Below, in pieces: positions 12,144 to 48,566 of a DNA stretch of 49,084 nucleotides. The position numbers and the translations under genes are program-made. The DNA comes from a virus. The DNA is taken from IMG/VR virus record IMGVR_UViG_3300036801_000234, positions 1-49,084 of that record, one strand, 5' to 3'. The notes under the pieces are model-generated. The model had not been told where the DNA came from, ran no database searches, and saw only the letters and a program-made list of their open reading frames with translations. The stretch's first letter is position 1; the number at the start of each line of letters is the position of its first letter.

Positions 12144-12165
12144 TGTCCGGCGCCGGCGGGACTAT
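12144..12165 (+). promoter_or_regulatory. candidate promoter of the CGTCCG-N10 class
   Basis: TGTCCG at 12144-12149, ten bases, then GACTAT at 12160-12165, then seven bases to the ATG at 12173. It fits the motif repeated elsewhere in this genome and would give a leaderless endolysin transcript. Confidence 0.5.
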
Positions 12166-12172
12166 GCCGCGC

Positions 12173-12850
12173 ATGTCCCGCGCCGCGCTCCTGGCAGTGA
12201 AAGTCCGCTGGCAGGCCAAACGCAACTTCCGCCTACGGCGTTGGCGCTACTGGCGCAGACGCCCCAAGCAGACCGCCAAGACGGTCGCGCTGCGGCGCAA
12301 GTGGTGGGGGCTCTACCAGGAGTCCGAGCGCGTGCTCAAGCGCGTCAACGCCTCCTACGCGGCCAAAGCGCCGGTGGACAAGCCGGGGCGCGCGATCGCC
12401 TTCGGCAAGCACTACATCGGCGTCCACGAGTCGCCGGCGGGCTCCAACCGCGGCCCGCTGATCGACCGCTGGCAGGCGCGCTTTGGCTTCCGCGGCGCCC
12501 CGTGGTGCGGGCTCTTCCTCGGCAACGAGCTCCTGGCCGGCGGCGTGCACGGCGTCACTTCGCGCATCGCGTCCGTCTCGGCGATCGAGGACGACGCGCG
12601 CGCGCACCGCGGCTGCTTCGTCGGCTGGACCCCGGGCTTCGGCCAGCACGCGCGCCGCGGCGACGGCGTTGTGCTCTTCGGGCGCGGCATCCACGTCGAG
12701 CTGATCGTGGAGGTGCTCAACGGCGCCTACGTCACGATCGGCGGCAACACGAGCGCGAGCAAAGCTGGCAATCAGAGCGCCGGCGGCTGCGTCGCCGAAC
12801 ACATCCGATCCGCGGGCGAGGTTCACGGCGTCGCCCACGTCCGCTACTAG
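12173..12850 (+). CDS. endolysin, CHAP/NlpC-like cysteine amidase
   Basis: 225 residues from the ATG at 12173, chosen because a promoter-like motif ends seven bases upstream; ATG 12164 is the alternative. The first 60 residues are very basic and rich in Arg and Trp (RRWRYWRRRP), perhaps binding wall polymers or membrane. The catalytic domain shows the Cys-His-Asn order of small CHAP-like amidases: Cys112 in GAPWCGLFLGN, His174 in GIHVELIVEV and Asn192 in IGGNTS. It would cut peptidoglycan peptide or amide bonds at the end of infection. A holin candidate follows 12 bases later behind a strong AGGAGG site. There is no signal peptide, so it needs a holin. Confidence 0.75.
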   Translation: MSRAALLAVKVRWQAKRNFRLRRWRYWRRRPKQTAKTVALRRKWWGLYQESERVLKRVNASYAAKAPVDKPGRAIAFGKHYIGVHESPAGSNRGPLIDRWQARFGFRGAPWCGLFLGNELLAGGVHGVTSRIASVSAIEDDARAHRGCFVGWTPGFGQHARRGDGVVLFGRGIHVELIVEVLNGAYVTIGGNTSASKAGNQSAGGCVAEHIRSAGEVHGVAHVRY

Positions 12851-12862
12851 GAGGTCTGCACC

Positions 12863-13180
12863 ATGGAGGCATCATCGACGGTCGGTCCCAGCAACGACGA
12901 GCTGCTCGCGCAGCAGGGCGTCGAGATCCCCGGTGCCGACGCGGCTGCGGAAGTCTCGCCCGACGCCCCGCCGCAGGTGCTCGCCACCCCGGACATCACG
13001 AAGGCGCAGATGATCGGCGCCGTCCCCGTGATCGCCAAGCTGCTCGCGGCCTTCCACGTCTACACCCTCAGTGCCGACCAGCAGGAAGCGCTGACGCTGG
13101 CCGTGGGCGGGGGCGTGGCGCTGTGGGCCGCTGACGCCGTGATCCGCTTCGGGCGCAGCGTCAACAAGCAGAAGGCATGA
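12863..13180 (+). CDS. holin candidate
   Basis: 105 residues with a strong ribosome site (AGGAGG, 12849-12854). The N-terminal 45 residues are acidic and Pro-rich. Two hydrophobic segments follow, about 50-70 (MIGAVPVIAKLLAAF) and 80-97 (LTLAVGGGVALWAADAVI), with a short basic tail. This two-helix layout and position directly after the endolysin fit an actinophage holin. It overlaps the next gene by 4 bases. Confidence 0.6.
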   Translation: MEASSTVGPSNDELLAQQGVEIPGADAAAEVSPDAPPQVLATPDITKAQMIGAVPVIAKLLAAFHVYTLSADQQEALTLAVGGGVALWAADAVIRFGRSVNKQKA

Positions 13181-13443
13181 CGGTCGACGGGATGACAACC
13201 ACGTCGAACACCGGCAGCCCGCTCGTCACCTACGCCCGCGCGGCCCGCAAGAAGAAGAAGCCGCGCAACTTCATCAAGGGCGCGATCAAGCACCCGGGCG
13301 CGCTGCACCGCGCGCTCGGGGTCCCCCAAGGGCAGACGATCCCGCCGGCGAAGGTCGCCGCTGCGGCCGCCAGCGACAACCCAGACCTGCGCCGCAAAGC
13401 GCAGTTCGCGCGCACGCTGGGCAAGCTGTCCAAGAAGAAATAG
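13177..13443 (+). CDS. small basic conserved phage protein
   Basis: 88 residues. The core (KKKKPRNFIKGAIKHPGAL ... NPDLRRKAQFARTLGKL) resembles a widespread family of small Lys/Arg-rich phage proteins with the FIKxAIKHPGAL signature. Its function is not established; DNA or virion association has been assumed from charge and location. It ends the lysis block and is followed by a hairpin. Confidence 0.65.
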   Translation: MTVDGMTTTSNTGSPLVTYARAARKKKKPRNFIKGAIKHPGALHRALGVPQGQTIPPAKVAAAAASDNPDLRRKAQFARTLGKLSKKK

Positions 13444-13448
13444 CCGGT

Positions 13449-13477
13449 AGTTGCGGCGTGAGCAGCGCCGCTCAACT
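13449..13477 (+). terminator. hairpin after lysis block
   Basis: AGTTGCGGCG pairs with CGCCG(CT)CAACT around a 7-base loop, starting 6 bases after the stop at 13443. There is no T-run, so it is a possible GC-rich intrinsic terminator or RNA-end stabiliser. Confidence 0.5.
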
Positions 13478-13493
13478 CCCCTGAGCGAAGTTC

Positions 13494-13515
13494 CGTCCGA
13501 CGAAGGTGTAGTCTC
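13494..13515 (+). promoter_or_regulatory. candidate promoter for the recombination block
   Basis: CGTCCG at 13494-13499 followed at nine or ten bases by TAGTCT/AGTCTC. It lies in the 144-base gap upstream of the long rightward block from 13588 and fits the recurring motif. The box at 13509-13514 is one base off the usual spacing. Confidence 0.35.
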
Positions 13516-13545
13516 GCCAACGTCGAATAGAGTCCGACCGGAACG

Positions 13546-13563
13546 CCGTAGGGCTTCCTACGG
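13546..13563 (+). other. perfect 7-bp hairpin in 5' leader
   Basis: CCGTAGG-GCTT-CCTACGG is a perfect stem-loop located 25 bases upstream of the ATG at 13588. If transcription begins at the motif at 13494-13515, it sits in the leader RNA and could affect stability or translation. Confidence 0.5.
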
Positions 13564-13587
13564 GAACTGAGTGAAAGGGGCAGCAGT

Positions 13588-13823
13588 ATGAGCGTTGAGT
13601 CCGTCGTGGACGAGGTCAAGGCCGCCTGGCGCGCAAGCGCGGCGAGCGCCAGGCGATCGACTGGCACTGGCACCCCGAGCAGGAGTCGCCAGACTTCGGA
13701 GCGCAGGGTCTGCAGCTCGACCTGCAGGATCTCGACGCGATCGCCCGGCGTCATCACAGCGACGGCTTCCGCGCCGGCCAGGCCGTCGGCTACAAGGACG
13801 GCAAGCAGCAGGGCGCTTGCTGA
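13588..13823 (+). CDS. small gene with apparent frameshift
   Basis: The ATG at 13588 has an upstream AAAGGGG. The first 15 codons look real (MSVESVVDEVKAAWR). The same frame then turns into Ser/Thr/Arg-rich sequence typical of a shadow. Convincing, balanced protein continues instead in the -1 frame (RKRGERQAIDWHWHPEQ, then GFRAGQAVGYKDGKQQGAC) up to the TGA at 13821-13823. That frame has no ATG or GTG start of its own. The likely product is about 78 residues across a frame change near 13630. No classical slippery heptamer is visible, so a single-base sequencing or assembly error, a true mutation or an unusual programmed shift are all possible. Confidence 0.5.
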
Positions 13824-13830
13824 AGGCGCG

Positions 13831-14061
13831 ATGGTGCGCCACGCCACCGACATGCAGACCCTCACCGCGGTGGCCGAGGTGCTACGCGAGCGCCTGGAGC
13901 GCATCCCCGACCGCCTGTCGGCGCCGGCGAACGGCGAGCGCGACCGCCGCTCCAAGAGCGCGCTGCGCGAGGAGGCGCTGCAGCTGGTCGACGAGATCCG
14001 GGCGTGCTTCGGCGTGCTGCTCGCCGCGGTCGTGCAGGGCGAGTTCGACCAGGCGTCCTGA
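13831..14061 (+). CDS. hypothetical helical protein
   Basis: 76 residues from the ATG at 13831. It is helical and charged (VAEVLRERLERIPDRL; REEALQLVDEIRACFGVLLA). The frame is open far upstream, but the region before 13831 is better explained by the frameshifted gene. It overlaps the next gene by one base (TGATG) at the head of the recombination block. No family is recognised. Confidence 0.6.
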   Translation: MVRHATDMQTLTAVAEVLRERLERIPDRLSAPANGERDRRSKSALREEALQLVDEIRACFGVLLAAVVQGEFDQAS

Positions 14062-14582
14062 TGCCCCAGATCACAATCGACTTCAGCGACCAGGAGCGCG
14101 ACGCGCTCACCTTCGACACCGTGCTCGACCGGATCGCCCTGATCGTGATGACGGAGTGGGACGTCCCTGCGAGCGTGGCCCTCGACGGCGACAGCGAGAA
14201 CCCCACGAAGATCGTGCTGGCGATCAACAGCAAGATCGAAAAGGTGATCCGCCAGGAAGCGGCGGACGCCGCCGAGGGTATTGCCCAGCGCATCCTCGAC
14301 AAAGGCGTCATCCAGGTCGACGAGTACGGCTACCGCAGGGGCAAGGAGATCCCCGTCGCCGAGATCATCGCCAACCAGGTCAAGGAAGAGCTGAGCACGC
14401 ATGGCGGCAACCGCCGCGGCGCCGGCGCGCTGCAGGAGCTGATCCGCACGGAAGTCTCGCGCGAGCTCAAAGGCGAGCTGAAGGAGACGCTGGACGAGGC
14501 CAAGCGCACCGTCATGGACGCGGTCGGCAGCACGGCGATCGCCGAGCTGCGTAAGGCCCTCGCCGACGGGGTGCAGTTCTGA
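14061..14582 (+). CDS. hypothetical protein next to ERF
   Basis: 173 residues from ATG 14061 (TGATG overlap). An earlier GTG at 14004 would sit inside the upstream gene. The protein is acidic and mostly helical, with a short beta start (PQITIDFSDQERDALTF) and a central RILDKGVIQVDEYGYRRGKE. Its coupling to the annealing protein suggests an accessory in recombination or replication, which is inference only. Confidence 0.7.
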   Translation: MPQITIDFSDQERDALTFDTVLDRIALIVMTEWDVPASVALDGDSENPTKIVLAINSKIEKVIRQEAADAAEGIAQRILDKGVIQVDEYGYRRGKEIPVAEIIANQVKEELSTHGGNRRGAGALQELIRTEVSRELKGELKETLDEAKRTVMDAVGSTAIAELRKALADGVQF

Positions 14583-17698: not shown

Positions 17699-18012
17699 AG
17701 CCGACCATCGGCAGGATCGTCATCTACCGCTCGCACATCGGCGACTACGACTTGCCGGCGATCGTCACCGCCACGGTCGAGACGCCCAACCGCGCCGACG
17801 TCGAGAAGGGCTACGTGCCGGAGCTCAGCAGCGCCGAGCACGTTCACCTCACGGTGTTCACGCCCGCCGTCCCGGGCGTCGGGAGCATCTATCAGGGGTG
17901 GGACGTCCCGCCCGCAGCGCCGGTCGAAGGCAAGGGCTTCATCGAGAGCCAGGCCACGCCCGCCGGCGAGCCCGGCCCGGGCACCTGGCGCTGGCCGGAG
18001 CGTGTGTCGTGA
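17695..18012 (+). CDS. conserved small phage protein with WRWPER end
   Basis: 105 residues (ATGA overlap). It opens with KPTIGRIVIYRSHIGDYDLPAIVTA and ends TWRWPERV. This beta-barrel-like pattern (start MKPTxGRIV, end WxWPE) recurs in many phages and prophages of unrelated hosts. Its function is unknown. Its neighbours here are the possible nucleotide sponge and a RyR-domain protein. Confidence 0.65.
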   Translation: MKPTIGRIVIYRSHIGDYDLPAIVTATVETPNRADVEKGYVPELSSAEHVHLTVFTPAVPGVGSIYQGWDVPPAAPVEGKGFIESQATPAGEPGPGTWRWPERVS

Positions 18013-18428
18013 GCGCCGGCGAGAGCGCGCGCGAGATGCAGCCCGACGAGAAGGTCACGGCGATCGCGCGGGTCTGTCACGAAGCCAACCGCGCCTGGTG
18101 TGAGATCCACGGCGACACCTCGCAGTTCGCCTGGGAGGAGGCCGAAGCCTGGCAGCGCGAGAGCGCGATCAAAGGCGTGGCCACGGCGCTCGCCGGCGCC
18201 ACGCCCGAGGAGCAGCACGAGGCGTGGTGCACCGACAAGCGCCACGAAGGCTGGAGCCACGGCCCGGTGAAGGACCCCGAGGCCCGCACGCACCCGTGCC
18301 TGGTGGCCTACGAGAAGCTGCCGCCGATGCAGCGCTGCAAGGACGCGCTGTTTGGCTCGGTCGTGCAGGGCCTGGCGCCGGCGCTCGGGCTTGCAATCGA
18401 CAAGGAGGGATCAGATGGAGGGAGCTAG
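18009..18428 (+). CDS. RyR-domain protein
   Basis: 139 residues from GTG 18009 (GTGA overlap); ATG 18036 is an alternative start. The RyR repeat is clear: ARVCHEANRAWCEIHGD, AWEEAEAWQRESAIKGV, then GWSHGPVKDPEARTHPCLV and KDALFGSVV. In prokaryotes and phages this domain has been proposed to bind small molecules or nucleotides in conflict systems. No enzyme domain is fused to it. Its place beside the possible Acb2-like gene makes a counter-defence or sensing role plausible, which is inference. Confidence 0.8.
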   Translation: MSAGESAREMQPDEKVTAIARVCHEANRAWCEIHGDTSQFAWEEAEAWQRESAIKGVATALAGATPEEQHEAWCTDKRHEGWSHGPVKDPEARTHPCLVAYEKLPPMQRCKDALFGSVVQGLAPALGLAIDKEGSDGGS

Positions 18429-20583: not shown

Positions 20584-20607
20584 TCGCAGCCCGTGAGGAG
20601 AGACAAC

Positions 20608-21780: not shown

Positions 21781-22084
21781 CGACAACACGATCAGGTTCA
21801 CGCTCCGCGAGGAGCATGTGAAGCTCCTGCGCGCGGCCTACGTCAGCTGGGAGGGCCGCGAGTATGGCGCGCCCGCCATCGACTGCAAGCGCCCGTACGG
21901 CAACAACGACGTCCCGGACGACATCCGCCGGGTGCTGAGCCTGCCCCACCTCAGCGACGACGACTGCCGCGCCCTGCATGAGGAGACGCAGACGGCGCTG
22001 CAGATCATCCTGCGAACGGGCGCCTTCGGGCCCGGGGCGTACGAAGCCAACCGCTATCGCCGGGACTGGCACGTGGCGCTGTGA
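21773..22084 (+). CDS. conserved small phage protein
   Basis: 103 residues from ATG 21773 with GGGAGG upstream. The stretch REEHVKLLRAAYVSWEGRE, then GAPAIDCKRPYGNNDV, is a recognisable pattern of a widespread phage family of unknown function. It overlaps both neighbours. Confidence 0.65.
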   Translation: MADDNTIRFTLREEHVKLLRAAYVSWEGREYGAPAIDCKRPYGNNDVPDDIRRVLSLPHLSDDDCRALHEETQTALQIILRTGAFGPGAYEANRYRRDWHVAL

Positions 22085-22647
22085 GCCTGGGCCAGAGCGA
22101 GCTGTTCGTCCCGCAGCCCACGAAGAAGCTGAGCGTGGCGAGCGGGCACGACGCCTGGTGGGGCGTAGATAGCTCGACCAAACGGGTCGCGATCGGCGCC
22201 ATCAACGCCGAGGGCGAGCGCTACGGCAGCATCGCCTCGATCGCGCCGGTCGAAGGGGCCGAGCGCCTGGCGATGATCTACCAGCGCACGGGAGGGCTCT
22301 GTCAGTACGTACTGGATGCGGGTTGGCCCGGCGTGATCGTGGTCGAGGCCGCGGCCGGCTTCGGCAAGCGCCCCAACCCCGAGCTCGCCTACGCGGTCGG
22401 CGCGGTCCTCGCCGGCGTCGGCGCGGCGTGCCCGGGCGTCTGCGTGCAGATGGTGGTCGGCTCCAAGTGGAAGCTCGAGGTCTGCGGCTTCGGCGGCATC
22501 AAAAAGCCCAAGCCCACTGACAAAGAGGAGTACGCGGTGCTGAAGTGGGCGCGCGAGGCGGGCTATGACGGCTCCTCCTGGGACGAGGCTGACGCCTGGG
22601 CAATCGCCGATTACGCTCGGCGCACCTACGCGCTGGAGCAGCGATGA
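22081..22647 (+). CDS. RuvC-like Holliday-junction resolvase/nuclease
   Basis: 188 residues from GTG 22081. The RNase H fold acidic set is visible: GVDSSTKRVAIGAI (first Asp), VVEAAAGFGKRPNPEL (Glu), and DEADAWAIADYA (two C-terminal Asp). The arrangement matches RuvC-like phage resolvases, which trim recombination or replication junctions before packaging. Context with ERF and the Fe-S nuclease supports a recombination role. Confidence 0.75.
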   Translation: MSLGQSELFVPQPTKKLSVASGHDAWWGVDSSTKRVAIGAINAEGERYGSIASIAPVEGAERLAMIYQRTGGLCQYVLDAGWPGVIVVEAAAGFGKRPNPELAYAVGAVLAGVGAACPGVCVQMVVGSKWKLEVCGFGGIKKPKPTDKEEYAVLKWAREAGYDGSSWDEADAWAIADYARRTYALEQR

Positions 22648-23141
22648 GCGACATCGAGATCAGCCGGGACAAGCAGATCATCGTCGGGCCGTCGACTGTG
22701 CTCTGCAAGGTGCACGGCGAGCACCTGCGCGCGCACTGGCCCAACGGCTTCGGGATGGTGGGCATCGAGTGCGTCAGAGCGGCGCTGGCCAACCCGGTGC
22801 TGCTGCGGGCCGTCGGCCTCGACCCCGACAGCTCCGAGCACGACGGCGAGCTGCCGATCGCGGCCGTCAACGAGGTGTTCGCGCAGCGCCCGATGTGCTA
22901 CTGGATCGAGGCCGACGTCATACGCAAAGCCCTGGTCGCCCACGTGCTCGACAAGCATCAGCGGTGCGAGATCTGCGGGCATATCGGCCACGTCGGCGCG
23001 TACGCCACGCTCGACCCGCTGGGCGTGCCCGTCGTCAAGGACACCTGCGTGGAGTGCGCCATCGCCGGCGGTGAACGCTTCCACCGGCTCTTCCCGGGTG
23101 GGCCGCCGCCCGGCATGGCGATCCCGCCAGAGAAGCTGTGA
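22644..23141 (+). CDS. hypothetical zinc-binding protein
   Basis: 165 residues (ATGA overlap). Two CxxC pairs (CEICGHIGH and CVECAIAGGERFH) suggest a zinc site in the C-terminal half. The N-terminal half is unassigned. Function unknown. Confidence 0.6.
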   Translation: MSDIEISRDKQIIVGPSTVLCKVHGEHLRAHWPNGFGMVGIECVRAALANPVLLRAVGLDPDSSEHDGELPIAAVNEVFAQRPMCYWIEADVIRKALVAHVLDKHQRCEICGHIGHVGAYATLDPLGVPVVKDTCVECAIAGGERFHRLFPGGPPPGMAIPPEKL

Positions 23142-23451: not shown

Positions 23452-23473
23452 CGTCCGCCCCCGCGAACAGTAT
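23452..23473 (+). promoter_or_regulatory. candidate promoter of the CGTCCG-N10 class
   Basis: CGTCCG 23452-23457, ten bases, CAGTAT 23468-23473. The gene start is at 23514, with an AGGAAAGGGG ribosome site in a short leader. This is one of the best motif matches outside the structural genes. Confidence 0.5.
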
Positions 23474-23513: not shown

Positions 23514-24104
23514 GTGCCACCCACCGCTGTAGCGGATCCCACGACTGACACCTCGATCGACGACGACGCGACCGTCGGCGGGTTCGACGAGAACCCAGAG
23601 GTCGCGCGCCACGAAAAGCTCGCCGAGCAGAAGGACGCCCAGGCGGACGAGCTCGTCGATCAGGGCGACGAGGAGGGCGCGAACATCGCGCGCATCGAGG
23701 CCGATGAGGAGCGATCCAAAGCGGCCGAGCTCAAGGAGAACGCCGGCGAGGCCACCGGCCAGGGCGACCCGGCCACCGAGGCTGCCGCACGCGCGGTCGC
23801 CGACGCCGAAGGTCAGCAGCTCGCCCCCGAGGAGATCATCGTCTCGGGCGTGAAGATGCCCTACGGCAAGCTCGGCGGCAAGGCGCCCACGGGCGGCACG
23901 CTGAGCTTCTCCGGCGGCAAGATCGAACTCGAGCAGGGGACGGCCTACAAGAAGGGCCAGACGATCCGCGGGAGCTTCGTCGCGGTCGTCAGGGAGGTGG
24001 CCCAGGTCGATACCCACGACTCGGCCACCCAGCAGGTCAGCTCCTCCGAGCAGCGCCACGTCGCCCGCTTCATCGACTTGACCGTCGAGGTGCCGGCCGA
24101 GTAG
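23514..24104 (+). CDS. conserved phage protein, coiled coil plus beta domain
   Basis: 196 residues, GTG start. Residues 25-100 are highly acidic and helical (HEKLAEQKDAQADELVDQGD). Residues 105-196 form a beta domain (GTLSFSGGKIELEQGTAYKKG, then FVAVVREVAQVDTHDS) like the C-terminal domain of a family common in actinophage replication regions. Its role is undefined. It has its own promoter-like motif and terminator, so it is a single-gene transcription unit. Confidence 0.6.
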   Translation: MPPTAVADPTTDTSIDDDATVGGFDENPEVARHEKLAEQKDAQADELVDQGDEEGANIARIEADEERSKAAELKENAGEATGQGDPATEAAARAVADAEGQQLAPEEIIVSGVKMPYGKLGGKAPTGGTLSFSGGKIELEQGTAYKKGQTIRGSFVAVVREVAQVDTHDSATQQVSSSEQRHVARFIDLTVEVPAE

Positions 24105-24183: not shown

Positions 24184-24205
24184 CGTCCGCCTGAGCAGGC
24201 ATCTT
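24184..24205 (+). promoter_or_regulatory. candidate promoter of the CGTCCG-N10 class
   Basis: CGTCCG 24184-24189, ten bases, CATCTT 24200-24205, directly after the terminator at 24146-24180. It lies 45 bases ahead of the GTG at 24251, which has a GAGGAAGGGG site. Placement between a terminator and a gene start supports promoter function. Confidence 0.5.
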
Positions 24206-24250: not shown

Positions 24251-24541
24251 GTGGCAGCTGACGAGAAGCACGACCTGCCGGCAGCGTGGTACATGGCGCT
24301 GCGGTTCTGCCCCTACTGCTCAGGCACGGGTAAGCGCGAACGCCCGCCAGAAGACGAGTGCGGCTTCTGCGGTGCCACCGGCGACCTGTTCGGCCACATG
24401 CTCGAGGAGGTCTACGCAATGGGCCGAGACGAGGGCGTGCGCGCGCTACGGGCGCTCTACGCCGACCTGGTGCTCGCCGGCGGCTCGACCGCCCGGCACA
24501 CGGTCCCTGCGGCGCAGCTGAAGGCACGGCTGGGCCTGTGA
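24251..24541 (+). CDS. DnaJ-like zinc-knuckle protein
   Basis: 96 residues. Two CxxCxGxG units (CPYCSGTG and CGFCGATG) form a zinc finger like that of DnaJ, followed by a helical tail with LKARLGL. There is no J domain, so a small nucleic-acid- or protein-binding zinc protein is likely. It overlaps the methylase gene (GTGA). Confidence 0.65.
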   Translation: MAADEKHDLPAAWYMALRFCPYCSGTGKRERPPEDECGFCGATGDLFGHMLEEVYAMGRDEGVRALRALYADLVLAGGSTARHTVPAAQLKARLGL

Positions 24542-27605: not shown

Positions 27606-27627
27606 CGTCCGCTGCACCGGCCATCAT
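27606..27627 (+). promoter_or_regulatory. candidate promoter, best consensus match
   Basis: CGTCCG 27606-27611, ten bases, CATCAT 27622-27627, then nine bases to the GTG of the tailspike gene at 27637. No ribosome site lies between, so the transcript is probably leaderless. Confidence 0.6.
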
Positions 27628-30285: not shown

Positions 30286-31436
30286 GGCTGCGCCCGCACG
30301 CGCCGTCGCGCCCGCAGCTGCCGTTCGCGCCGTTTCACCCCAGCAACATCTTCAGCCGCGACAACACCGCGAGCACGCGCAACGGCGACCAGTCCGAAGC
30401 CAAAAAGCTCGCCAACCAGCTCAATTACGGCAACCCCGCCTACGCGTTCAGCGGCTACGCCGGCATCGGGTGGGGGATCCCCGCGTTCGGCTTTCAGACC
30501 GTCGCCAACATTCGCGAATACGCGACGACGATCTTCTACATGCCGCCCGGCTATCCGCGCCGCAAAGTGCTCTACGTCGACGGCTCGCTGAGTGCGCAGC
30601 CGGTGGGCTGGGCGAACAACCTGCAGGCGCCGTTCAATTCGGTGCCGGTGCCCGACCCGGCGGCCGTGCGCTCCACCGTCGTGCCCTACGAATCGCCCGA
30701 CACCGACAAACAGACGGTGATCTTCGACCTGGGGACCGGCGAGATGTGGGAGATGTTCCGCTTCAAACTCCCCTACTTCAAGCCCACATTCCAGTACGGC
30801 GGCTACCTCGCCTCGGCCGCCGCCGGCAAAGGCATCTACCCCTTCAACGCCGAAGGCACCTGGGGCGCCGGCGCGACGAGCCTCTACGCCCTGGGCGGCA
30901 CGATCACCGCGCAAGACCTGGTCGAAGTGCTGCGCGGCGGCAAGATCAAACACGCGCTCTGCGTCGCCTGCCCGGCGGTGAAGGGTCCGGCGCAGCTGCC
31001 CTCGACGCGCTTTGACGCCTTCCACAACCTCCCGGCGCTGGATCCCGAAGGCAACCCCAACCCCGCCTACCCCGAAGTTGACGCCGTGCGCGAGGGCTCG
31101 TGGTTCATGTTCCCAGCGGCCGCCAAACCGAGTGACTTCGGCATGACCGGGCGCATCGAGATCGCGATCTTCGAGGCGATCCAGACCTACGGCCTGTTCG
31201 TCAACAACGCCTCGGGCAACTGCTCCTTCTACGTCGAGCGCCCGGCGACGCTGGGCACGCCCTACTCCTGGGCGCGCGTCAACCCGTGGGCCGGCTACGT
31301 GACCGACATGGGGCTGCCGGCGTCGCTGACCGACTGGTCGCTGCCGCCGATCGACGAGCTCTTCAGCGGCACGGCCAGCGTGTTCGCCAAGCAGCCGTGG
31401 GGCCAGCTGGAGCAGCTCGAACCGTTCGCGTCCTAG
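30282..31436 (+). CDS. unknown virion-region protein resembling actinobacterial secreted proteins
   Basis: 384 residues from GTG 30282 (GTGA overlap). Features are FGWGIPAFGF-like aromatic turns, EMWEMFRFKLPYF, GAGATSLYALGGTITAQDL, and IKHALCVACP, then FEAIQTYGLFVNNASGN. These resemble a family of actinobacterial secreted proteins whose function I do not know. Location between the spike and a fibre suggests a receptor-binding or surface-degrading protein. No N-terminal signal peptide is seen. Confidence 0.55.
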   Translation: MRLRPHAPSRPQLPFAPFHPSNIFSRDNTASTRNGDQSEAKKLANQLNYGNPAYAFSGYAGIGWGIPAFGFQTVANIREYATTIFYMPPGYPRRKVLYVDGSLSAQPVGWANNLQAPFNSVPVPDPAAVRSTVVPYESPDTDKQTVIFDLGTGEMWEMFRFKLPYFKPTFQYGGYLASAAAGKGIYPFNAEGTWGAGATSLYALGGTITAQDLVEVLRGGKIKHALCVACPAVKGPAQLPSTRFDAFHNLPALDPEGNPNPAYPEVDAVREGSWFMFPAAAKPSDFGMTGRIEIAIFEAIQTYGLFVNNASGNCSFYVERPATLGTPYSWARVNPWAGYVTDMGLPASLTDWSLPPIDELFSGTASVFAKQPWGQLEQLEPFAS

Positions 31437-31450
31437 CCGTCCGCCATCAT
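31429..31450 (+). promoter_or_regulatory. candidate promoter of the CGTCCG-N10 class
   Basis: CGTCCT 31429-31434, ten bases, CATCAT 31445-31450, then seven bases to GTG 31458. It overlaps the stop of the upstream gene. It gives a leaderless start for the fibre gene. Confidence 0.5.
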
Positions 31451-32409: not shown

Positions 32410-32431
32410 CGTCCGCAGGGCGCGGCATCAT
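32410..32431 (+). promoter_or_regulatory. candidate promoter of the CGTCCG-N10 class
   Basis: CGTCCG 32410-32415, ten bases, CATCAT 32426-32431, then seven bases to GTG 32439. The spacing to the start is identical to that at 31450 and 12165. Confidence 0.5.
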
Positions 32432-33135: not shown

Positions 33136-33429
33136 TCACTTACGCGCTGCCAGCCAGGACTCGACCTGGCTGCGCGACCACAGCTCAAGCTCGCCCCGCG
33201 CGGCCTTGAAGCGCAGGACGGGCTCGGGGAAGTCGCGCTCGCGCCAGCGCAGCAGCGTCGAGCGCGGGACGCCGCCGCAGAGCTCGCGCACGGCGGCGCC
33301 CGGCATCAGCTCCGCCTCACAGACCGCCCACAGACCCGTCAGGTCGCCGGAGGCTGTATCGACGGTCAGAACCCCTCGGTTCGTCTCGATGCGGGTGAGA
33401 GGGGCGCCTGTGACGCTCTCAGCGGGCAT
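33136..33429 (-). CDS. AlpA/MerR-like HTH protein, possible excisionase
   Basis: 97 residues from the ATG at 33429 (TAATG overlap). The C-terminal 60 residues follow the small winged-helix pattern of excisionases and AlpA: ELCGGVPRSTLLRWRERDFPEPV, then ELELWSRSQVESWLAARK. The N-terminal 35 residues are unassigned. It is the last gene of the leftward operon. A role in excision with the integrase or as a regulator is likely. Confidence 0.65.
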   Translation of the reverse strand: MPAESVTGAPLTRIETNRGVLTVDTASGDLTGLWAVCEAELMPGAAVRELCGGVPRSTLLRWRERDFPEPVLRFKAARGELELWSRSQVESWLAARK

Positions 33430-33575
33430 TACTTGCGGCCACCTTTGCGGAAGCTGACCGCCAGGCCCACGAGCCCGGCCATGATGCTGCGCCCGAGCTC
33501 GCGCGTGCGCTCGTGCTCGGACAGCTTCGCGGCGCCGAAGATCAGCACCGCCCAGATCACCACGAGCGTCAGCAT
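33429..33575 (-). CDS. small membrane protein
   Basis: 48 residues from ATG 33575, overlapping both neighbours. An N-terminal helix (MLTLVVIWAVLIFGAAKL) spans the membrane and a short basic tail follows. Function unknown. Confidence 0.55.
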   Translation of the reverse strand: MLTLVVIWAVLIFGAAKLSEHERTRELGRSIMAGLVGLAVSFRKGGRK

Positions 33576-35740: not shown

Positions 35741-35769
35741 AGCGTACTACGCCTACGTCGCGATGTCAA
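35741..35769 (-). promoter_or_regulatory. consensus sigma-70-type promoter, leftward
   Basis: Reading leftward: TTGACA (35769-35764), 17 bases, TACGCT (35746-35741). The start of the operon ATG is 56 bases downstream. The -10 region overlaps an odd palindrome, GCGTA-C-TACGC (35742-35752), a candidate operator. It differs entirely from the rightward CGTCCG-type motifs. Confidence 0.7.
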
Positions 35770-36795: not shown

Positions 36796-36833
36796 TGGAT
36801 ATCCACTGCTCCGTCCGCCCCAGTGGATATCCA
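36796..36833 (+). promoter_or_regulatory. promoter with two TGGATATCCA operators (RHH gene 36842)
   Basis: The perfect palindrome TGGATATCCA occurs at 36796-36805 and 36824-36833, 28 bp apart. Between them is CGTCCG (36812-36817); the second box, TATCCA (36828-36833), lies inside the right palindrome. The ATG follows eight bases later. A repressor on these sites would cover the promoter, as expected for autoregulation. Confidence 0.6.
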
Positions 36834-36841: not shown

Positions 36842-37102
36842 ATGCCCGAGAAGCGAGTCCTGCGGACCATCAGCCTGCGCCTGACGCGCGCCGAACTGGC
36901 GGCGATCGACGACGCCCGCGGAGAGGCTGCCCGCAACGCGTGGGTCCGCGGGGCGATCCGCACCCGGCTGGGCAACCACGCGCCGGTCGCCGACGCCGTG
37001 GCGCTGCAGCAGCCAACGATCTCGGGTACCCAGCCGGTGCCGGGACAGGCCCAGCGCGAGCTCGCCGTGGTCCCTGGAGTCCGGCGGGGCGTGGCCGCGT
37101 AG
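36842..37102 (+). CDS. ribbon-helix-helix repressor
   Basis: 86 residues. Residues 4-45 show the RHH fold: a strand (RVLRTISLRL), helix A (TRAELAAIDDARGE), a turn and helix B (RNAWVRGAIRTRLGN). The C-terminal half is Pro/Val-rich and unassigned. Arc/Mnt-type proteins in P22 use this fold to set immunity. The gene has its own palindromic operators at the promoter, so it probably represses itself and perhaps neighbours. Confidence 0.75.
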   Translation: MPEKRVLRTISLRLTRAELAAIDDARGEAARNAWVRGAIRTRLGNHAPVADAVALQQPTISGTQPVPGQAQRELAVVPGVRRGVAA

Positions 37103-37116: not shown

Positions 37117-37154
37117 CGGGTTACCCGACTTCCGGCGCTCGTGCTAGGGTACCC
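37117..37154 (+). promoter_or_regulatory. promoter with GGGT(T)ACCC operators (RHH gene 37157)
   Basis: CGGGTTACCCG at 37117-37127 and GGGTACCC at 37147-37154, centres about 28 bp apart. CTTCCG (37129-37134), ten bases and TAGGGT (37145-37150) form the promoter-like motif, and the ATG follows six bases later. The layout is the same as at 36796-36833 with a different operator sequence. A related GGGTACC-C block is at 37106-37117. Confidence 0.6.
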
Positions 37155-37511: not shown

Positions 37512-37795
37512 GCTGGCTCCTGGACAAGCTCACCGGGCGCAAGCCCGAGACGCAGATCGCGCGCGCCAGCGACGCGCACGACACGATAATGATGCTGAGC
37601 GGGCCGCGCGACTTCGTCCCCTACGACCTGCTGATGATCGAACGCACAAACGAGATGGTGCGCCTCGACGAGGTCCTCAGCGAGGGCACGAAGCACACCA
37701 CCGTCGCGGTGACGCGTGGGCTGGGCTCGACGCCCTGGCCGGTGGAGGTCGGCGACGTCGTGCTGAAGGTCGGCTGCAGCGACCCCGATAGCTGA
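37508..37795 (+). CDS. hypothetical protein
   Basis: 95 residues (ATGA overlap). A short helix (SWLLDKLTGRKPE) precedes a beta-rich domain (TVAVTRGLGSTPWPVEVGDVV). It shares one base with the next gene. No family. Confidence 0.6.
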   Translation: MSWLLDKLTGRKPETQIARASDAHDTIMMLSGPRDFVPYDLLMIERTNEMVRLDEVLSEGTKHTTVAVTRGLGSTPWPVEVGDVVLKVGCSDPDS

Positions 37796-38382
37796 TGGAC
37801 AAGTCGCTGAAGGAGCTCCAGGCCGACGGCGCGATCCACGCGAACCTGTCGGGTACCGAGCAGAACATCCTGCGCATGGCCGGCAACGGCAAGTCGCCGG
37901 AGTCGATCGCCAAGCTCTACGGCTGCTCAGAGGCCGAGGTGCAGCGCATCATCGCCGACATCCGCGCCCGCGTGGCGTCTGCCACGGGCGGCACGATGAC
38001 GGCGGGCGCCGAGCCAAAGCCGTCGACCGGCGACTCCTCCCAGGCTCGGCGCCCGCCTGAGAGTTCGTCGCGACCCAGCGGACCTCCTGCCAAAGACCGC
38101 ATCGTTGCGTACCTGCGCGAGCACGGCGAGACGCGCCAGAGCGCACTCTCGCGCCTGGAGGGCCGCGCCAAGTTCCTGTGCCTGAGCAGTCTCATTCTGC
38201 GCCCACCGCCCGAGGCGCCAAAATCGGAACCGGATGACGACGCCTGGATCGACGCGTACGTCAACCGCGAGGCCCTGCGCGAGCGCATCGCCGAGGGCCG
38301 CGAGCAGCTGCAGGCGCTGACGGCCGAGGTCGACCAGCTCGAGCAGCTGGCGTCGGTGCTCGGCGGCGTGGGCGTGCTCTAG
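37795..38382 (+). CDS. LuxR/sigma-region-4-like HTH protein
   Basis: 195 residues. Residues 18-62 match the HTH of sigma-70 region 4 or LuxR proteins (LSGTEQNILRMAGNGKSPESIAKLYGCSEAEVQ, read as two pieces around the turn). Residues 70-110 are a Ser/Pro-rich linker. The C-terminal part ends in a coiled coil (REQLQALTAEVDQLEQLASV). It could be a late-gene activator, a sigma-like factor or a small terminase. Its position just upstream of the structural transcription units makes a late regulator attractive. Confidence 0.5.
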   Translation: MDKSLKELQADGAIHANLSGTEQNILRMAGNGKSPESIAKLYGCSEAEVQRIIADIRARVASATGGTMTAGAEPKPSTGDSSQARRPPESSSRPSGPPAKDRIVAYLREHGETRQSALSRLEGRAKFLCLSSLILRPPPEAPKSEPDDDAWIDAYVNREALRERIAEGREQLQALTAEVDQLEQLASVLGGVGVL

Positions 38383-38389: not shown

Positions 38390-38411
38390 CGTCTGAGCCC
38401 CGCGCTACTCT
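38390..38411 (+). promoter_or_regulatory. candidate promoter of the CGTCCG-N10 class
   Basis: CGTCTG 38390-38395, ten bases, TACTCT 38406-38411. The next gene starts at 38450 behind GGAGG, so here the transcript would have a short leader. Confidence 0.45.
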
Positions 38412-38449: not shown

Positions 38450-40141
38450 ATGGAGGCCAGCGGCGCAGGGCAGGCGCAGGCGGATCAGGTAGCACCGGCC
38501 GCCGATCAGGCGCCAGTTGACGCCCAGCCGACCGGCACGGGGGTCGTCGTGATCTGCGGACAGTACGAGCCCGGCTCGATCGTCACGCTGCGCCACGTCG
38601 CCAACGAGGGAGTACTCCGCGCCGAGGGCAGCCCGATCGTCGGCCAGCGCGTCGTTGACGACGCCGAAGAGGTCGGCTTTGACAGCCTGGACGTCGGCGA
38701 GCGCTACATCGCCGCCGGCTACACCCGCGGGCGCTATGAGGAGGTCAGCATCACCGCCCACGACATCAACGCCAACGTCGAGCTGATGCAGCCGCCCGAG
38801 CGCCCGACCCCAGCCACGCTGGGTACGCAGGGCACGAGCGTCGTCAGCTCGCCGGCGGCCCCGTCAGAGGGCGCCGCAGACCTCGAGGTGGGCCTGCCCG
38901 AGGGCGTCACCTCGCCGATGCTCGGCGACCGCGAAGTTGGCGACACCGCGAACAAGCGCGACGACGCCAACGTCTCACCCGGCGACGTCGACGGCGTCGC
39001 GACTCCGGCCGCGCCCGCTGAGCAGGCGCCCGAGCTCTACCTGCACCTCACCGCCGACGCGGTGGAACCGGCCTACGAGCTGACCGGGCTGCAGACGCCG
39101 GCGGAAACGGCCGCCGACGGCTCGACGAAGGACCCGCAGAGCCTCTATCGCCACGTCGGCGCCGGCGACGTCAACCCGGCCGAGTGGCAGCGCTATGAGG
39201 GCGCGACCGAGCCGGTGCCCGGGCCGACGGCTGACGAACACCTGGCCGTCGAAGCCGAAGCCCTGAAGGCCAAGCAGGACGCCGAAGCGGCCGCTGCCAA
39301 GGCCGCCGACGAAGCCGCTGAAGCCGCCAAGGCCGAAGCCGACGCCAAGGCCGCCGAGGACCAGGCCGCCGCGGAGGCTGCCGCCAAGCAGAAAGCCGAC
39401 GCTGAAGCCGCTGAAGCGCAGGCCAAGATTGATGCCGAACTGGCCGCCACCCAGGCCGCCGAAGCGGCGAAGGCCGCCGAAGCTGCCGCTGACGCTCAGG
39501 CTGCCGCGGACGCTCAGGCTGCCGCGGACGCCAAGGCCGCCGAAGACGCCGCCGCGGCCGCAGCTGCGCCGGACCCCGCCGCGGAGGCTCCAGCGGCCAG
39601 CTCGACTCCCGAGGCGCCGGGAGATGGAGCAGCAGCCGGCACGGACGTCGCTGCTGCTCCCATCGACCAGGCCAACCCGCCGGCGCCCACGGCCGGCACG
39701 CCCGACGCCAGCGAGTCCTCCGGGACCGGCGCGGCCAACGGGGGCGCGGTCGAACAAGCGACGGCGGACCCTTCCGCACCCGCGTCCAGCGCGGCGCCTG
39801 GGGCGGCGGATGGATCAGCGTCCACGGCCGCGGCGACGGATGGGGCGCCCGCGGCTGACACTGCGCCGGCGGCTGACGCTGCCCCGGTCGCGGACACCGC
39901 GCCGGCGGCTGACGCAGCACCGGCCGACGCAGCGCCTGCAGCCGACGCGGCTCCGGTCGACGCCGCGCCCGCGGACGCTGCGCCCGCAGTTGACGCCGCC
40001 CCCGCGGCCGACGCTGGGCCGACTGCGTGGGACCAGCTTGTGCAGCAGGCGGAGGCCGCTGGCGTGGACGGCGCCAAAGAACTCTCCGACGCCGAGCTGC
40101 GCCAGGCAATCACCGAAAAGGGCCTAACGCCGGTCGTCTGA
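38450..40141 (+). CDS. Ala/Pro-rich virion-like protein
   Basis: 563 residues. Residues 30-105 form a beta module (YEPGSIVTLRHVANEG, DSLDVGERYIAAGYTRG) like the fibre N-domains. Residues 255-375 are an almost pure Ala/Glu/Lys/Asp/Gln helix, as in TolA. Residues 440-525 are Ala-Pro-Ala-Asp repeats. The last 40 residues (GVDGAKELSDAELRQAITEKG) look like a small SAP/HeH-type helical domain. It may be a long flexible head fibre or a scaffold-like linker. DNA repeats in the Ala region make it prone to length change. Confidence 0.55.
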   Translation: MEASGAGQAQADQVAPAADQAPVDAQPTGTGVVVICGQYEPGSIVTLRHVANEGVLRAEGSPIVGQRVVDDAEEVGFDSLDVGERYIAAGYTRGRYEEVSITAHDINANVELMQPPERPTPATLGTQGTSVVSSPAAPSEGAADLEVGLPEGVTSPMLGDREVGDTANKRDDANVSPGDVDGVATPAAPAEQAPELYLHLTADAVEPAYELTGLQTPAETAADGSTKDPQSLYRHVGAGDVNPAEWQRYEGATEPVPGPTADEHLAVEAEALKAKQDAEAAAAKAADEAAEAAKAEADAKAAEDQAAAEAAAKQKADAEAAEAQAKIDAELAATQAAEAAKAAEAAADAQAAADAQAAADAKAAEDAAAAAAAPDPAAEAPAASSTPEAPGDGAAAGTDVAAAPIDQANPPAPTAGTPDASESSGTGAANGGAVEQATADPSAPASSAAPGAADGSASTAAATDGAPAADTAPAADAAPVADTAPAADAAPADAAPAADAAPVDAAPADAAPAVDAAPAADAGPTAWDQLVQQAEAAGVDGAKELSDAELRQAITEKGLTPVV

Positions 40142-40160
40142 CCGGGAAGGAGCAGATGAC

Positions 40161-42509: not shown

Positions 42510-42522
42510 CACACTGGCGCCT

Positions 42523-42765: not shown

Positions 42766-43124
42766 ACATCAGCGGCGCAGTACTCCTCGGCAACACCGAG
42801 AAGCCGCGCAAGCGCCTGATGGTGCCCAAGGGCCTCGAGGACGACCGGCCGCCGCTCGTCGGTCACTGCCTCGTGCCCGGCTGCGGGGCGAAGTTCTATC
42901 GCGGCGAAGAGGCCGACTACCAGCGCCACGCCGAGTATCACGTGAAACACGACCTGGACGACCTGCGCGCGCTGGCGCCCAGCGAGACGAAGCGCGGCAC
43001 GGTCTTCGATCCGGCCGACGTCGACCCCGAGGTGCGCGCCCACTGGCGCAAGGTGCGCGCCGACATGGAGCGCGAGGGCCGTACCGAGGTTCGCCCCAAC
43101 GAGACGGCCGAACGCGGTAGCTGA
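42762..43124 (+). CDS. C2H2-type zinc-finger protein
   Basis: 120 residues from ATG 42762. A clear C-x4-C-x14-H-x3-H finger (CLVPGCGAKF, then DYQRHAEYH) lies at about residues 36-60, followed by an acidic/basic helix. Such fingers are uncommon in phages and may bind DNA near the packaging machine. Confidence 0.65.
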   Translation: MNISGAVLLGNTEKPRKRLMVPKGLEDDRPPLVGHCLVPGCGAKFYRGEEADYQRHAEYHVKHDLDDLRALAPSETKRGTVFDPADVDPEVRAHWRKVRADMEREGRTEVRPNETAERGS

Positions 43125-43143
43125 CCGCTGTGGCTGTGACAAT
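43122..43143 (+). promoter_or_regulatory. candidate promoter of the CGTCCG-N10 class
   Basis: TGACCG 43122-43127, ten bases, GACAAT 43138-43143. It starts at the stop of the upstream gene. A GGAGGAG site and ATG 43174 follow. Confidence 0.4.
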
Positions 43144-43173
43144 CGCGGCCAACCCGAGTCGGAGGAGCTGAGC

Positions 43174-43587
43174 ATGGCCGTACGGACAGTCAGGGTCGGA
43201 CCCGACCAGATCTTCACCACGCGCTTCGGGCAGGAGATCCCCGTCGTCAGCCATGAGCGCCAGGTCTGGGCCGCCGCCCGCATGGCCACCGTCGTTGACA
43301 TCTGCGGAGGCGCCTACAGCGTGCTCTACGGCCGGCAGAACACCGGCATCGAGGGCGAATTCGTGACCACCGAACTGCTCCTGCACTGGCGCGATCGTGG
43401 CGACGCGAAGGCCCAGCACGAGGAGGCCGTCAGCTTCGAGGACGTCAACGGCGTCTCGATCTTCGGCGAGAGCGAGGAGCCCGTCGAGCAGGCGGATCCC
43501 GACGTCGAGATCGAGTACGTCGAGCGCGACCCGCACGTCGACGGCAACGGCGTCGTGCACCACGCCGAGGACGCCGTCTCCGCGTAA
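43174..43587 (+). CDS. hypothetical virion-region protein
   Basis: 137 residues with GGAGGAG upstream. Beta-rich first part (VRTVRVGPDQIFTTRFGQEI) and a very acidic second half. It lies just before the portal, where some phages keep a portal chaperone or small head protein. No family. Confidence 0.6.
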   Translation: MAVRTVRVGPDQIFTTRFGQEIPVVSHERQVWAAARMATVVDICGGAYSVLYGRQNTGIEGEFVTTELLLHWRDRGDAKAQHEEAVSFEDVNGVSIFGESEEPVEQADPDVEIEYVERDPHVDGNGVVHHAEDAVSA

Positions 43588-43602
43588 GGGGCTACTCGCT
43601 CG

Positions 43603-46201: not shown

Positions 46202-46202
46202 C

Positions 46203-46224
46203 AGTCCGCCTCGTCGCCTACTAT
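46203..46224 (+). promoter_or_regulatory. candidate promoter of the CGTCCG-N10 class
   Basis: AGTCCG 46203-46208, ten bases, TACTAT 46219-46224, then nine bases to ATG 46234. No ribosome site lies between, so it is probably leaderless. Confidence 0.5.
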
Positions 46225-46233
46225 CGCCGCGTA

Positions 46234-46569
46234 ATGGGCCAGGACGCGCCGACCGCGCTTTACAACCACGTAGATCGGGTCTTCCCCGAGCTGCAGACGC
46301 TGAGCGAGTCAGCGGAGGCTGTCAAGCGCATCGCCGGCGATCCGGGCTTTCAGGCGATCCGGCAGCTGCTCCACGCGGAGGTCGAGCGACTCGACCGCAG
46401 CTTGGACAACGCGCCGCTTCGCGAGGCGACCGAATACGCCCACGCCCACGGTCGGCGAGGGGCGCTTCTCGCCTTTGAGGACGCAGTGACGGCGATCGTC
46501 GAGCGCGCGACAGCGCGTGAGCGCGAGGCCGAAAACGAGGCTGCGGGCGAGTCCGCGGCAGAGAGGTAG
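46234..46569 (+). CDS. hypothetical protein
   Basis: 111 residues, all helical and acidic (TLSESAEAVKRIAGDPGFQ, LLAFEDAVTAIVERATARE). It sits before the scaffold gene behind its own promoter-like motif. It may assist capsid assembly; no family. Confidence 0.6.
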   Translation: MGQDAPTALYNHVDRVFPELQTLSESAEAVKRIAGDPGFQAIRQLLHAEVERLDRSLDNAPLREATEYAHAHGRRGALLAFEDAVTAIVERATAREREAENEAAGESAAER

Positions 46570-46576
46570 GTCCGAG

Positions 46577-47326
46577 GTGGAGGGTTCAGTAGCAGCCGCA
46601 CCGGCAGCGCCCGCAGCAGGCGACGCAGCTCAGCAGCAGCAGCAGCAGGCAGACGGGACCGAGTCCCAGAGCCAGCAGCAGCAGCAGGCCGAGCCGACGC
46701 TCGCCGACATCCACTCGACGCTGCAGCAGTTCGGTTCAGACGTCGAGTCGATGCGCGACCACCTCGCGACGGAACCGTGGAAGCCCGCGGATGGCCAGGA
46801 GGGCCAGCAGCAGCAGCAACAGCAGCAGCAGGCGCCCGAGGATCTGGACTTCAGCTTCCTCGACGAGAACGCGCCGACCTACCAGGGGCCAGAGGCTGCG
46901 ATGCAGCAGCTGGGCGAGCTGATCCGCGGCGAGGCTCAGAAGATCGCCACGGATCAGGTGGCGCCGCTCAAGCAGGAGATCCAGCAGGAACGCCACGATC
47001 GCCAGTTTGAGGCCCTGTCTGACAAGTACCCGCAGCTGCAGGATGAGGCCGTGGCCCAGGAGCTGCTCAAGGTGACCGCGCAGGTCGTCGAGCAGGAAGG
47101 GTTCCCGAAGGAGCTCGCTCTCCACCCCGGCTTCGTCGAGAGGATCTACTTGGCCTCTCGTGCACAGGAGCAAAACCAGGACGGCGGCGACGCCGGCGCA
47201 GCATCGCTCGAGGGCGCAGGCGGGGCGAGTCCCGGCGGCGCAGGTCAGGGCGCAGAGCAACCAACAGCAGCCGACTGGGCCAAGGGGGTCGCGCCGAAGC
47301 GACTCGGGCTCTTCACCGGCGGCTGA
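46577..47326 (+). CDS. scaffolding protein
   Basis: 249 residues from GTG 46577. It has three Gln runs encoded by CAG repeats (six, five and nine Gln), an acidic helical centre (FEALSDKYPQLQDEAVAQEL), and a Gly/Ala tail ending WAKGVAPKRLGLFTGG, a typical basic capsid-binding end. Position directly before the capsid gene fits a scaffold. The CAG runs could change length by slippage. Confidence 0.7.
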   Translation: MEGSVAAAPAAPAAGDAAQQQQQQADGTESQSQQQQQAEPTLADIHSTLQQFGSDVESMRDHLATEPWKPADGQEGQQQQQQQQQAPEDLDFSFLDENAPTYQGPEAAMQQLGELIRGEAQKIATDQVAPLKQEIQQERHDRQFEALSDKYPQLQDEAVAQELLKVTAQVVEQEGFPKELALHPGFVERIYLASRAQEQNQDGGDAGAASLEGAGGASPGGAGQGAEQPTAADWAKGVAPKRLGLFTGG

Positions 47327-47361
47327 TCCCTGAATCCCGCACCGCATAAGGAGTAGCCGAC

Positions 47362-48501
47362 ATGGCCACGATCACCGGACAGACAAGCACCACCAACATC
47401 CTCAGCACGCAGCTGCCGGTCGAAATCGGCAGCGAAATCAAGCTGCTGGACCCCAACATCCAGGCGCTCACGGTCTTCACCCGCGAAGCGTCGAGCAAAG
47501 AGGTCGGGGTCCCGAAGTTCAAATGGCTCGAGGACGAAGCCAAGCCGCGCTTCGACACGACGACGGCAGCCGTCGCCTCGACCACCACGCAGGACATCCC
47601 CGTCGCTCACGGGACCTACTTTCAGCAGTGGGACCTCGTGCTCGACACGCGCACCGGCGAGCTCATGCGCGTCGACAGCGTGACGGGCAACACGCTCAGC
47701 GTGACCCGGGGGATCGGCTCGACGGCCGCCAACCTCAACGAAACCGACGAGCTCATGCTGATCTCGACGGCCCAGCCCGAGGGCGACACGTCCAAGACGC
47801 CTCGCTCGCTCGTGCCGACGCAGTTTGAAAACTACACGGAGATCTTCCGTGAGCCCTTCGAACTGTCGGAGACGGCCGCCAACGCCAACTACCAGGTCAA
47901 CCCGCACGAGTGGGACCGCAAACAGCAGCGGTCGGCGGTGGAGCACGCGAAGAACATCGAGTACGCCAACCTCTTCGGGCGCAAATCGGCGACGACGCCG
48001 GGCACCGCTGAGGTCCGCACGACAGGCGGCGCGCTGTCCTTCATCACCACCAACCAAACCGACGCCGGCGGGTCGCTCTCCGAATCAGAGTTCGGGAGCT
48101 TCCTGAAGTCGACGATGCGGTTCCCGGGCACCTCCGAGGACAAGATCATGTTCGCCTCGGGGACCGTGCTGCAGGCGCTCAACAAGTTCCCGAGCTCCAA
48201 GCAGGTGACCAAAAACGACGACAAGACGTACGGGATGAACGTCACCCGCTACGAAGGCCCCTTCGGCGCGATCCACACCGTGTGGGACAAGCTGCTGGAG
48301 GGCAACAAGTACGACGGCTACGGCATCGTGATCGACATGCAGCAGGTGGCATTTCGCCCCTTCCGCAACCGCGACACGAAACTGCTCCTCAACCGCCAGC
48401 CGAACAACCAGGACGCCAAACTGGCCGAGTACCTGACCGAGCAGGGTCTGGAATTCGGCCTGCAGCGCGCGCACGGCGTGCTCAGCGGCGTCACCGGCTA
48501 G
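47362..48501 (+). CDS. major capsid protein, SU10/DUF5309-like
   Basis: 379 residues behind AAGGAG. Features are the N-arm (TGQTSTTNILSTQLPVEIG), an E-loop-like VGVPKFKWLEDEA, the spine helix region (EWDRKQQRSAVEHAKNIEYA, GRKSATTPG), and AEYLTEQGLEFGLQRAHGV at the end. The pattern is that of HK97-fold capsids of the SU10-like family. It is placed after the scaffold and before a hairpin plus a new promoter-like motif. Confidence 0.8.
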   Translation: MATITGQTSTTNILSTQLPVEIGSEIKLLDPNIQALTVFTREASSKEVGVPKFKWLEDEAKPRFDTTTAAVASTTTQDIPVAHGTYFQQWDLVLDTRTGELMRVDSVTGNTLSVTRGIGSTAANLNETDELMLISTAQPEGDTSKTPRSLVPTQFENYTEIFREPFELSETAANANYQVNPHEWDRKQQRSAVEHAKNIEYANLFGRKSATTPGTAEVRTTGGALSFITTNQTDAGGSLSESEFGSFLKSTMRFPGTSEDKIMFASGTVLQALNKFPSSKQVTKNDDKTYGMNVTRYEGPFGAIHTVWDKLLEGNKYDGYGIVIDMQQVAFRPFRNRDTKLLLNRQPNNQDAKLAEYLTEQGLEFGLQRAHGVLSGVTG

Positions 48502-48529
48502 GGGCCCTTCCCGGACCTACGGCAAGGGC

Positions 48530-48545
48530 GGCGCCTACGGGCGCC
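48530..48545 (+). terminator. hairpin after capsid gene
   Basis: GGCGCC-TACG-GGCGCC stem-loop, 28 bases after the capsid stop. It abuts the CGTCCG motif, so it may attenuate read-through so that the capsid is made in excess. Confidence 0.45.
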
Positions 48546-48566
48546 GTCCGCCGTTGTGGGCATCAT
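48545..48566 (+). promoter_or_regulatory. candidate promoter of the CGTCCG-N10 class
   Basis: CGTCCG 48545-48550, ten bases, CATCAT 48561-48566. The gene start is at 48613 with an AAAGGA site. Exact match to the consensus. Confidence 0.55.

Follow-up and report, generated by a model that had tools for sequence, protein, structure and literature searches.

The window analysed here is the complete IMG/VR virus record IMGVR_UViG_3300036801_000234 (49,084 bases; 70% guanine plus cytosine, GC), in which a two-box motif, CGTCCG-N10-(C/T)ANNNT, is repeated on the plus strand ahead of genes. A first-pass annotation of this DNA had reported such a motif in these positions, and that observation was largely right, the motif being found well above chance. 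Our analysis suggests that the motif is probably a real promoter class of one clade of uncultured phages, where box 2 would be the -10 element of the host primary sigma factor and box 1 an activator site replacing the -35 element. This would represent a sequence-defined, clade-wide promoter class in phages without a cultured member, with precise predictions for spacing, start site and leaderless genes.

Distribution of the motif in the window

A good site was defined as a box 1 near CGTCCG, or its variant TGACCG, followed at exactly N10 by NANNNT. Ten of the 13 coordinates listed in the first-pass annotation were good sites and an eleventh, 37129, qualified weakly, as it fits the earlier consensus poorly yet agrees with box 1-N10-TANNNT and has a start codon at 6 bases. 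The remaining two were discarded: box 2 at 13494 reads AGTCTC at N10, with TAGTCT sitting at N9, and the site at 36812 has TATCCA as box 2, lies between two TGGATATCCA palindromes and has a matrix score like that of the background. The retained sites and one additional tentative member are listed below, with distances in nucleotides (nt) from box 2 to the start codon.

11385..11406, plus strand: TGACCG-N10-AACGCT, tentative member, 7 nt to GTG 11414
12144..12165, plus strand: TGTCCG-N10-GACTAT, 7 nt to ATG 12173, predicted leaderless, endolysin-like gene 12173-12850
23452..23473, plus strand: CGTCCG-N10-CAGTAT, leadered with Shine-Dalgarno sequence GAGGAAAGG, ahead of 23514-24104
24184..24205, plus strand: CGTCCG-N10-CATCTT, leadered, ahead of the zinc-finger gene 24251-24541 and the Dam methylase gene
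27606..27627, plus strand: CGTCCG-N10-CATCAT, 9 nt to GTG 27637, tail-spike-like gene
31429..31450, plus strand: CGTCCT-N10-CATCAT, 7 nt to GTG 31458
32410..32431, plus strand: CGTCCG-N10-CATCAT, 7 nt to GTG 32439
37129..37150, plus strand: CTTCCG-N10-TAGGGT, probable weak member, 6 nt to ATG 37157
38390..38411, plus strand: CGTCTG-N10-TACTCT, leadered (GGGAGG), ahead of 38450-40141
43122..43143, plus strand: TGACCG-N10-GACAAT, leadered (GGAGG), ahead of 43174-43587 and the portal gene
46203..46224, plus strand: AGTCCG-N10-TACTAT, 9 nt to ATG 46234, gene preceding the capsid genes
48545..48566, plus strand: CGTCCG-N10-CATCAT, leadered with a hairpin, 3' of the major capsid gene, kept in the related contig L005

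Counts within the window upheld the exact ten-base spacing and the strand preference. When both boxes were required to match in at least 5/6 positions, N10 gave 8 plus-strand and 2 minus-strand copies, and other spacings on the plus strand mostly gave 0–2 (N16, 5; N19, 4). The pattern [CTA]GTCCG-N10-NANNNT occurred 7 times on the plus strand and was absent from the minus strand, compared to an average of 1.6 copies in 200 dinucleotide shuffles; the maximum of 6 reached in shuffled windows for this loosest pattern is the one result in favour of chance, or of the composition of GC-rich intergenic DNA, as the cause. With a start codon 5–9 bases further on, 8 copies were counted against 0.66 in the shuffles (maximum 3), for a pattern that includes variants picked after seeing the window. 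All ten good sites lay mostly outside called genes, where the chance share of positions is 10.7%, in agreement with their proposed location in gaps before genes. In a leave-one-out position matrix 8/10 sites outscored the best minus-strand position (11.3), the exceptions being 31429, just under it at 10.7, and 38390, well under it at 5.8. The evidence from the window by itself is good but not overwhelming. The further proposal that several copies directly follow terminators was not supported, as terminator-like sites were as numerous as in shuffled sequence (10 vs 9.4; 8 vs 8.3) and not one of them was a plus-strand hairpin beside a motif.

Conservation in related phages

Searches with the capsid, terminase and portal proteins identified approximately 16 related phage contigs, among them four of 43–48 kilobases (kb) and one of 21 kb. 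On the coding strand of these relatives, NANNNT followed an exact CGTCCG at N10 24 times, in comparison to 4 times on the other strand, and other spacings gave about 3–4 copies each. The [CTA]GTCCG version gave 48 vs 11 copies, and the requirement of a start codon 6–9 bases after box 2, counted in the relatives and the window together, gave 31 vs 1. These counts are not independent events, since two contig pairs are near-copies and all share ancestry, and a syntenic comparison was therefore used. The gene at 46234-46569 of the window has homologues in the clade, and a GTCCG-type box-N10-TANNNT with a start codon 6–9 bases on precedes it in seven of nine members (window, L005, L006, G001, G006, G007 and G008), in G001 as the variant CGACCG, with protein identities of only 31–61%. 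A chance origin is scarcely credible in view of the strand, spacing and start-codon specificity seen in the other contigs, which refuted it, and of the syntenic conservation; in addition, phage phiC31, analysed as a control, showed no excess of the GTCCG motif. A partial literature search found no publication describing this motif.

Box 2 and the start-codon register

The first-pass annotation had noted that the second box resembles a -10 element, and the register of downstream start codons fits an ANNNT -10 followed by a leaderless start. For 53 coding-strand copies, [AG]TG was found 16 times at offset 7 and 7 times at offset 6 after box 2, in comparison to 0–4 at other offsets and a background of about 1–2, and the other strand had no such peak. 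This peak at 6–7 bases indicates that box 2 is a -10 element and that many downstream genes are leaderless, though roughly one in two copies in the window has a leader instead. When all GTCCG copies in non-coding DNA were aligned and box 2 was ignored, the standout columns were offset 17, with A in 36%, and offset 21, with T in 39%, which are the second and last positions of box 2. The same columns on the other strand gave 17% and 19%, an enrichment of about twofold.

To our knowledge, no GTCCG box has been described in actinobacterial leaderless promoters. The ANNNT -10 with a start codon 6–7 nt on, and hence at the predicted +1, is otherwise the arrangement of actinobacterial leaderless promoters read by the primary sigma factor, and Mycobacterium smegmatis commonly has both ANNNT at -13 to -6 and mRNA without a leader (PMC6448022). 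The two differ in the base preceding ANNNT, which is T in 63% of ANNNT promoters in M. smegmatis (PMC6448022) but is not required here (10/39). For five or six genes of the window the start is predicted to coincide with the transcript end or to lie no more than 3 nt from it, and annotation based on ribosome-binding sites would misplace some of these starts.

Absence of a -35 element and a contrasting promoter

None of 39 box promoters had a match of at least 4/6 to TTGACA at a spacing of 16–18, where approximately 7% were expected. Spacing, strand, gene position, -10 register, the missing -35 and conservation, which like the motif itself and the canonical promoter described below are direct results of computation, support well the earlier judgement that these are not normal sigma-70 -35/-10 promoters. 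Only one promoter of the window was found to carry a -35 hexamer at 16–18 base pairs (bp), that of the leftward anti-restriction operon with ArdC, which runs from 35685 down to 33136.

35741..35769, minus strand: TTGACA-N17-TACGCT, canonical promoter of the leftward ArdC operon, box absent, contrast class

The relatives L005 and G008 have TTGACG-N17-TANNNT at the corresponding place. With box promoters lacking a -35 and a canonical leftward promoter lacking the box, the best reading is that two promoter classes are used in one phage.

Proposed mechanism and alternative readers of box 1

We propose that box 2 would be bound as a -10 element by the host primary sigma factor and that transcription would start 6–7 bases after it, often at the A or G of the start codon, producing many leaderless mRNAs. 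Box 1, at about -28 to -23, would be the binding site of an auxiliary DNA-binding activator that substitutes for the absent -35 contact and keeps RNA polymerase on an otherwise weak promoter. The leftward anti-restriction operon would be read from its ordinary TTGACA/TANNNT promoter, and the box class would be turned on after it to express the rightward genes for replication, heads, tails and lysis. Box 1 is centred near -25/-26, a position between the contacts of sigma regions 4 and 2, and RNA polymerase alone would thus not be expected to read it. An activator of this kind agrees with a spacing and an orientation that do not vary, a weak -10 and the lack of a -35, and the box promoters are probably read by host polymerase aided by a DNA-binding protein. 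We infer the existence of the activator, dependence on it, the timing and the phage or host origin of the reader.

The first-pass annotation had instead named an alternative sigma factor or a phage-modified polymerase as the reader. This is one of several readings, and the data do not favour it over an activator that takes the place of the -35 contact, which fits them better. A host or phage alternative sigma factor that took CGTCCG for a -35-type element, with ten bases between it and the -10, would account for the constant spacing of the two boxes, a trait of sigma-factor promoters. It is nevertheless improbable, as sigma regions 2 and 4 span about 16–18 bp, not 10, in sigma-70 and extracytoplasmic function factors, and box 2, being the usual actinobacterial ANNNT -10, suggests the primary sigma factor instead. 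A search for sigma-70 region 4 (PF04545) gave no match in the window at E <= 10, and no sigma, RNA polymerase or WhiB families were found in Pfam scans of the small proteins of four clade genomes (one list gave the best 25 of 37 families). On these searches the idea of a phage-encoded sigma factor or polymerase as reader was rejected.

The same lack of a conserved phage sigma factor or polymerase would agree with a host-encoded reader, in which GTCCG near -25 is used by a host holoenzyme or host activator and the phages follow host practice. The presence of the box before genes of all functions, and in G001 without the phage candidate described below, is consistent with this. The perfect TTGACA-N17-TACGCT without a box on the leftward operon of the same phage points the other way, as it suggests that the host's normal promoter is different. 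We regard a host-encoded reader as possible but unlikely in comparison to the proposed mechanism.

One phage protein, the product of the last gene of the leftward operon, is a candidate for the activator.

33136..33432, minus strand: Xis/AlpA-type winged-helix protein, candidate reader or excisionase

It is conserved in the window, G002, G006 and G007 and matches PHROG families of excisionase/transcriptional regulators. Its AlphaFold model (predicted local distance difference test score, pLDDT, 75) has a helix-turn-helix-and-wing layout, and a Foldseek search of this model against the PDB gave no significant match, with CarA and the RdfS excisionase among the weak ones. A speculative version of the activator model, to which we give a rather low probability, is that this protein, expressed early under a canonical promoter, binds GTCCG at about -25 and recruits primary-sigma polymerase to promoters without a -35, often leaderless, as an independently evolved counterpart of MotA in actinophages. 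A second protein with a helix-turn-helix (37795-38382) was rejected as the common reader, as it had no homologue in other members at E < 1e-4.

Box 1 could also be read as the operator of an immunity repressor that covers promoters in a temperate phage. The window does have an integrase gene, and operators in many copies over promoters are found elsewhere, as with the palindromic GTTAC-N6-GTAAC of contig group G030. Box 1 by comparison is non-palindromic, with a single orientation, one exact distance and no -35 beside it. Its excess was found only at N10 and on one strand, unlike operators or stoperators that have copies away from promoters or in both orientations, and the strand excess among non-coding copies (151 vs 103) is about the number of promoter copies. 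A repressor operator is accordingly as doubtful as an alternative sigma factor, or marginally more so.

Several points weigh against an activator-dependent promoter class. Two of the nine members in the syntenic comparison, G002 and L019, have TAACAT and no box at N10. A general IMG/VR scan for CGTCCG-N10-TACTNT-N7-ATG matched 74 stretches, in comparison to 71 for an N11 control, with almost no further motif copies in the matching stretches; the class thus seems confined to this clade, and wide use in the virosphere was rejected. The winged-helix protein is absent from G001, a contig that has the box and may be incomplete, and it is for this reason a candidate only. The statements on the -10 and -35 elements are sequence statistics and not transcripts or biochemistry. 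Finally, the box may reflect a host habit of promoter use.

Comparison with known promoter and operator systems

By these comparisons the class is nearest in architecture to the T4 middle promoters but falls outside that family by its sequence and spacing and, as far as the Pfam scans go, by its regulators. The -35 of those T4 promoters gives way to a MotA box that lies 12 +/- 1 bp 5' of the -10 (PMC2988021). The likeness consists of a short non-palindromic box about 10–13 bp 5' of an ordinary sigma-70 -10, no -35, for which the box would here be the replacement, and a separate canonical early class within the same phage. The differences are a GTCCG box in place of TGCTT (full T4 box (a/t)(a/t)(a/t)TGCTTtA), a fixed spacing of 10 in place of 12 +/- 1, and many leaderless starts; moreover, T4 middle promoters need a strong -10, while here it is weak and T at -12 is often missing. 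The Pfam scans, one of which listed the best 25 of 37 families, showed no relative of MotA or AsiA, at which no search was directly aimed, and unrelated analogues of these proteins may exist. If the activator were confirmed, it would constitute a MotA-like replacement of the -35 outside T4.

Stoperators of cluster A mycobacteriophages are short repeated asymmetric sites across a temperate genome, some of them away from promoters. The box resembles them in being a short, repeated asymmetric site of a temperate phage genome, but it keeps a distance of exactly 10 bp to a -10. Streptomyces phage phiC31 likewise has a repeated promoter-like sequence (CGGGTTGCCGACTCCCTTAC copies) ahead of many genes, which differs from the box class in sequence and in preceding leadered genes. 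In the phiC31 sequence (L218), CGGGTTGCCGACTCCCTTAC-like repeats were seen before the genes at 22722, 25107, 27630, 29958, 31242 and 36291, and these are presumably the known phage-specific promoters.

Unrelated phages of 49% GC (L054, L062, G030) were considered as users of the same promoter and rejected, as their copies have a palindromic operator, GTTA(G/C)-N6-(C/G)TAAC, within TTGTTA-N18-TAAGNT promoters and an inconstant sequence at the CGTCCG position (CGTGCG, CGCCCG, CGGTCG). As a separate observation, the 49%-GC phages (L054, L062, L066, L069 and G030, which comprises L071-L073) contain at least about 18 copies of TTGTTA(G/C)TCGNNCGTAACG-N5-TAAGNT, mostly 6–7 nt before a start codon. 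The palindromic GTTAC-N6-GTAAC in the spacer of these leaderless promoters resembles a genome-wide set of repressor or activator sites.

Virus, host and other features of the window

Window genes include those for a large terminase, portal/head-tail adaptor, endolysins, tail spike, ERF annealase, PD-(D/E)XK nuclease, tyrosine integrase, ArdC and Dam. No cultured close relative was found: megablast with 22 kb of the window gave 0 matches, and terminase and capsid showed only about 22–35% identity to phage proteins. In search of the host, bacterial genomes were scanned twice with the capsid protein, and no relative was found. The best plasmid matches of ArdC were from Rhodococcus and Cutibacterium, and these matches, the GC content and the ANNNT -10 boxes make an actinobacterium the most likely host.

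In G007, too, the homologue of the endolysin-like gene is preceded by a box promoter (39990), 6 nt 5' of its start. A leader hairpin at 48574-48600, belonging to the gene after the major capsid gene, has a conserved sequence, GCGAGTGCGGG, in the window, L005, L006 and L008, and in L006 and L008 it is retained without the promoter box. The two TGGATATCCA palindromes at 36796-36833 lie 18 bases apart around CGTCCG, just 5' of the gene at 36842, and resemble a separate operator.

Other features were a small gene at 18009-18428 with an RyR domain (Pfam E 7.6e-11), unusual for a phage, and a conserved 188-amino-acid protein at 22081-22647 (WGVDSSTKRVAIG) that resembles a RuvC/RNase H-fold Holliday-junction resolvase, search confirmation being absent. 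On the minus strand at 6203-9430, a 1075-amino-acid open frame antisense to a gene of 1434 amino acids is likely a high-GC artefact, because codon-position GC favours the plus strand.

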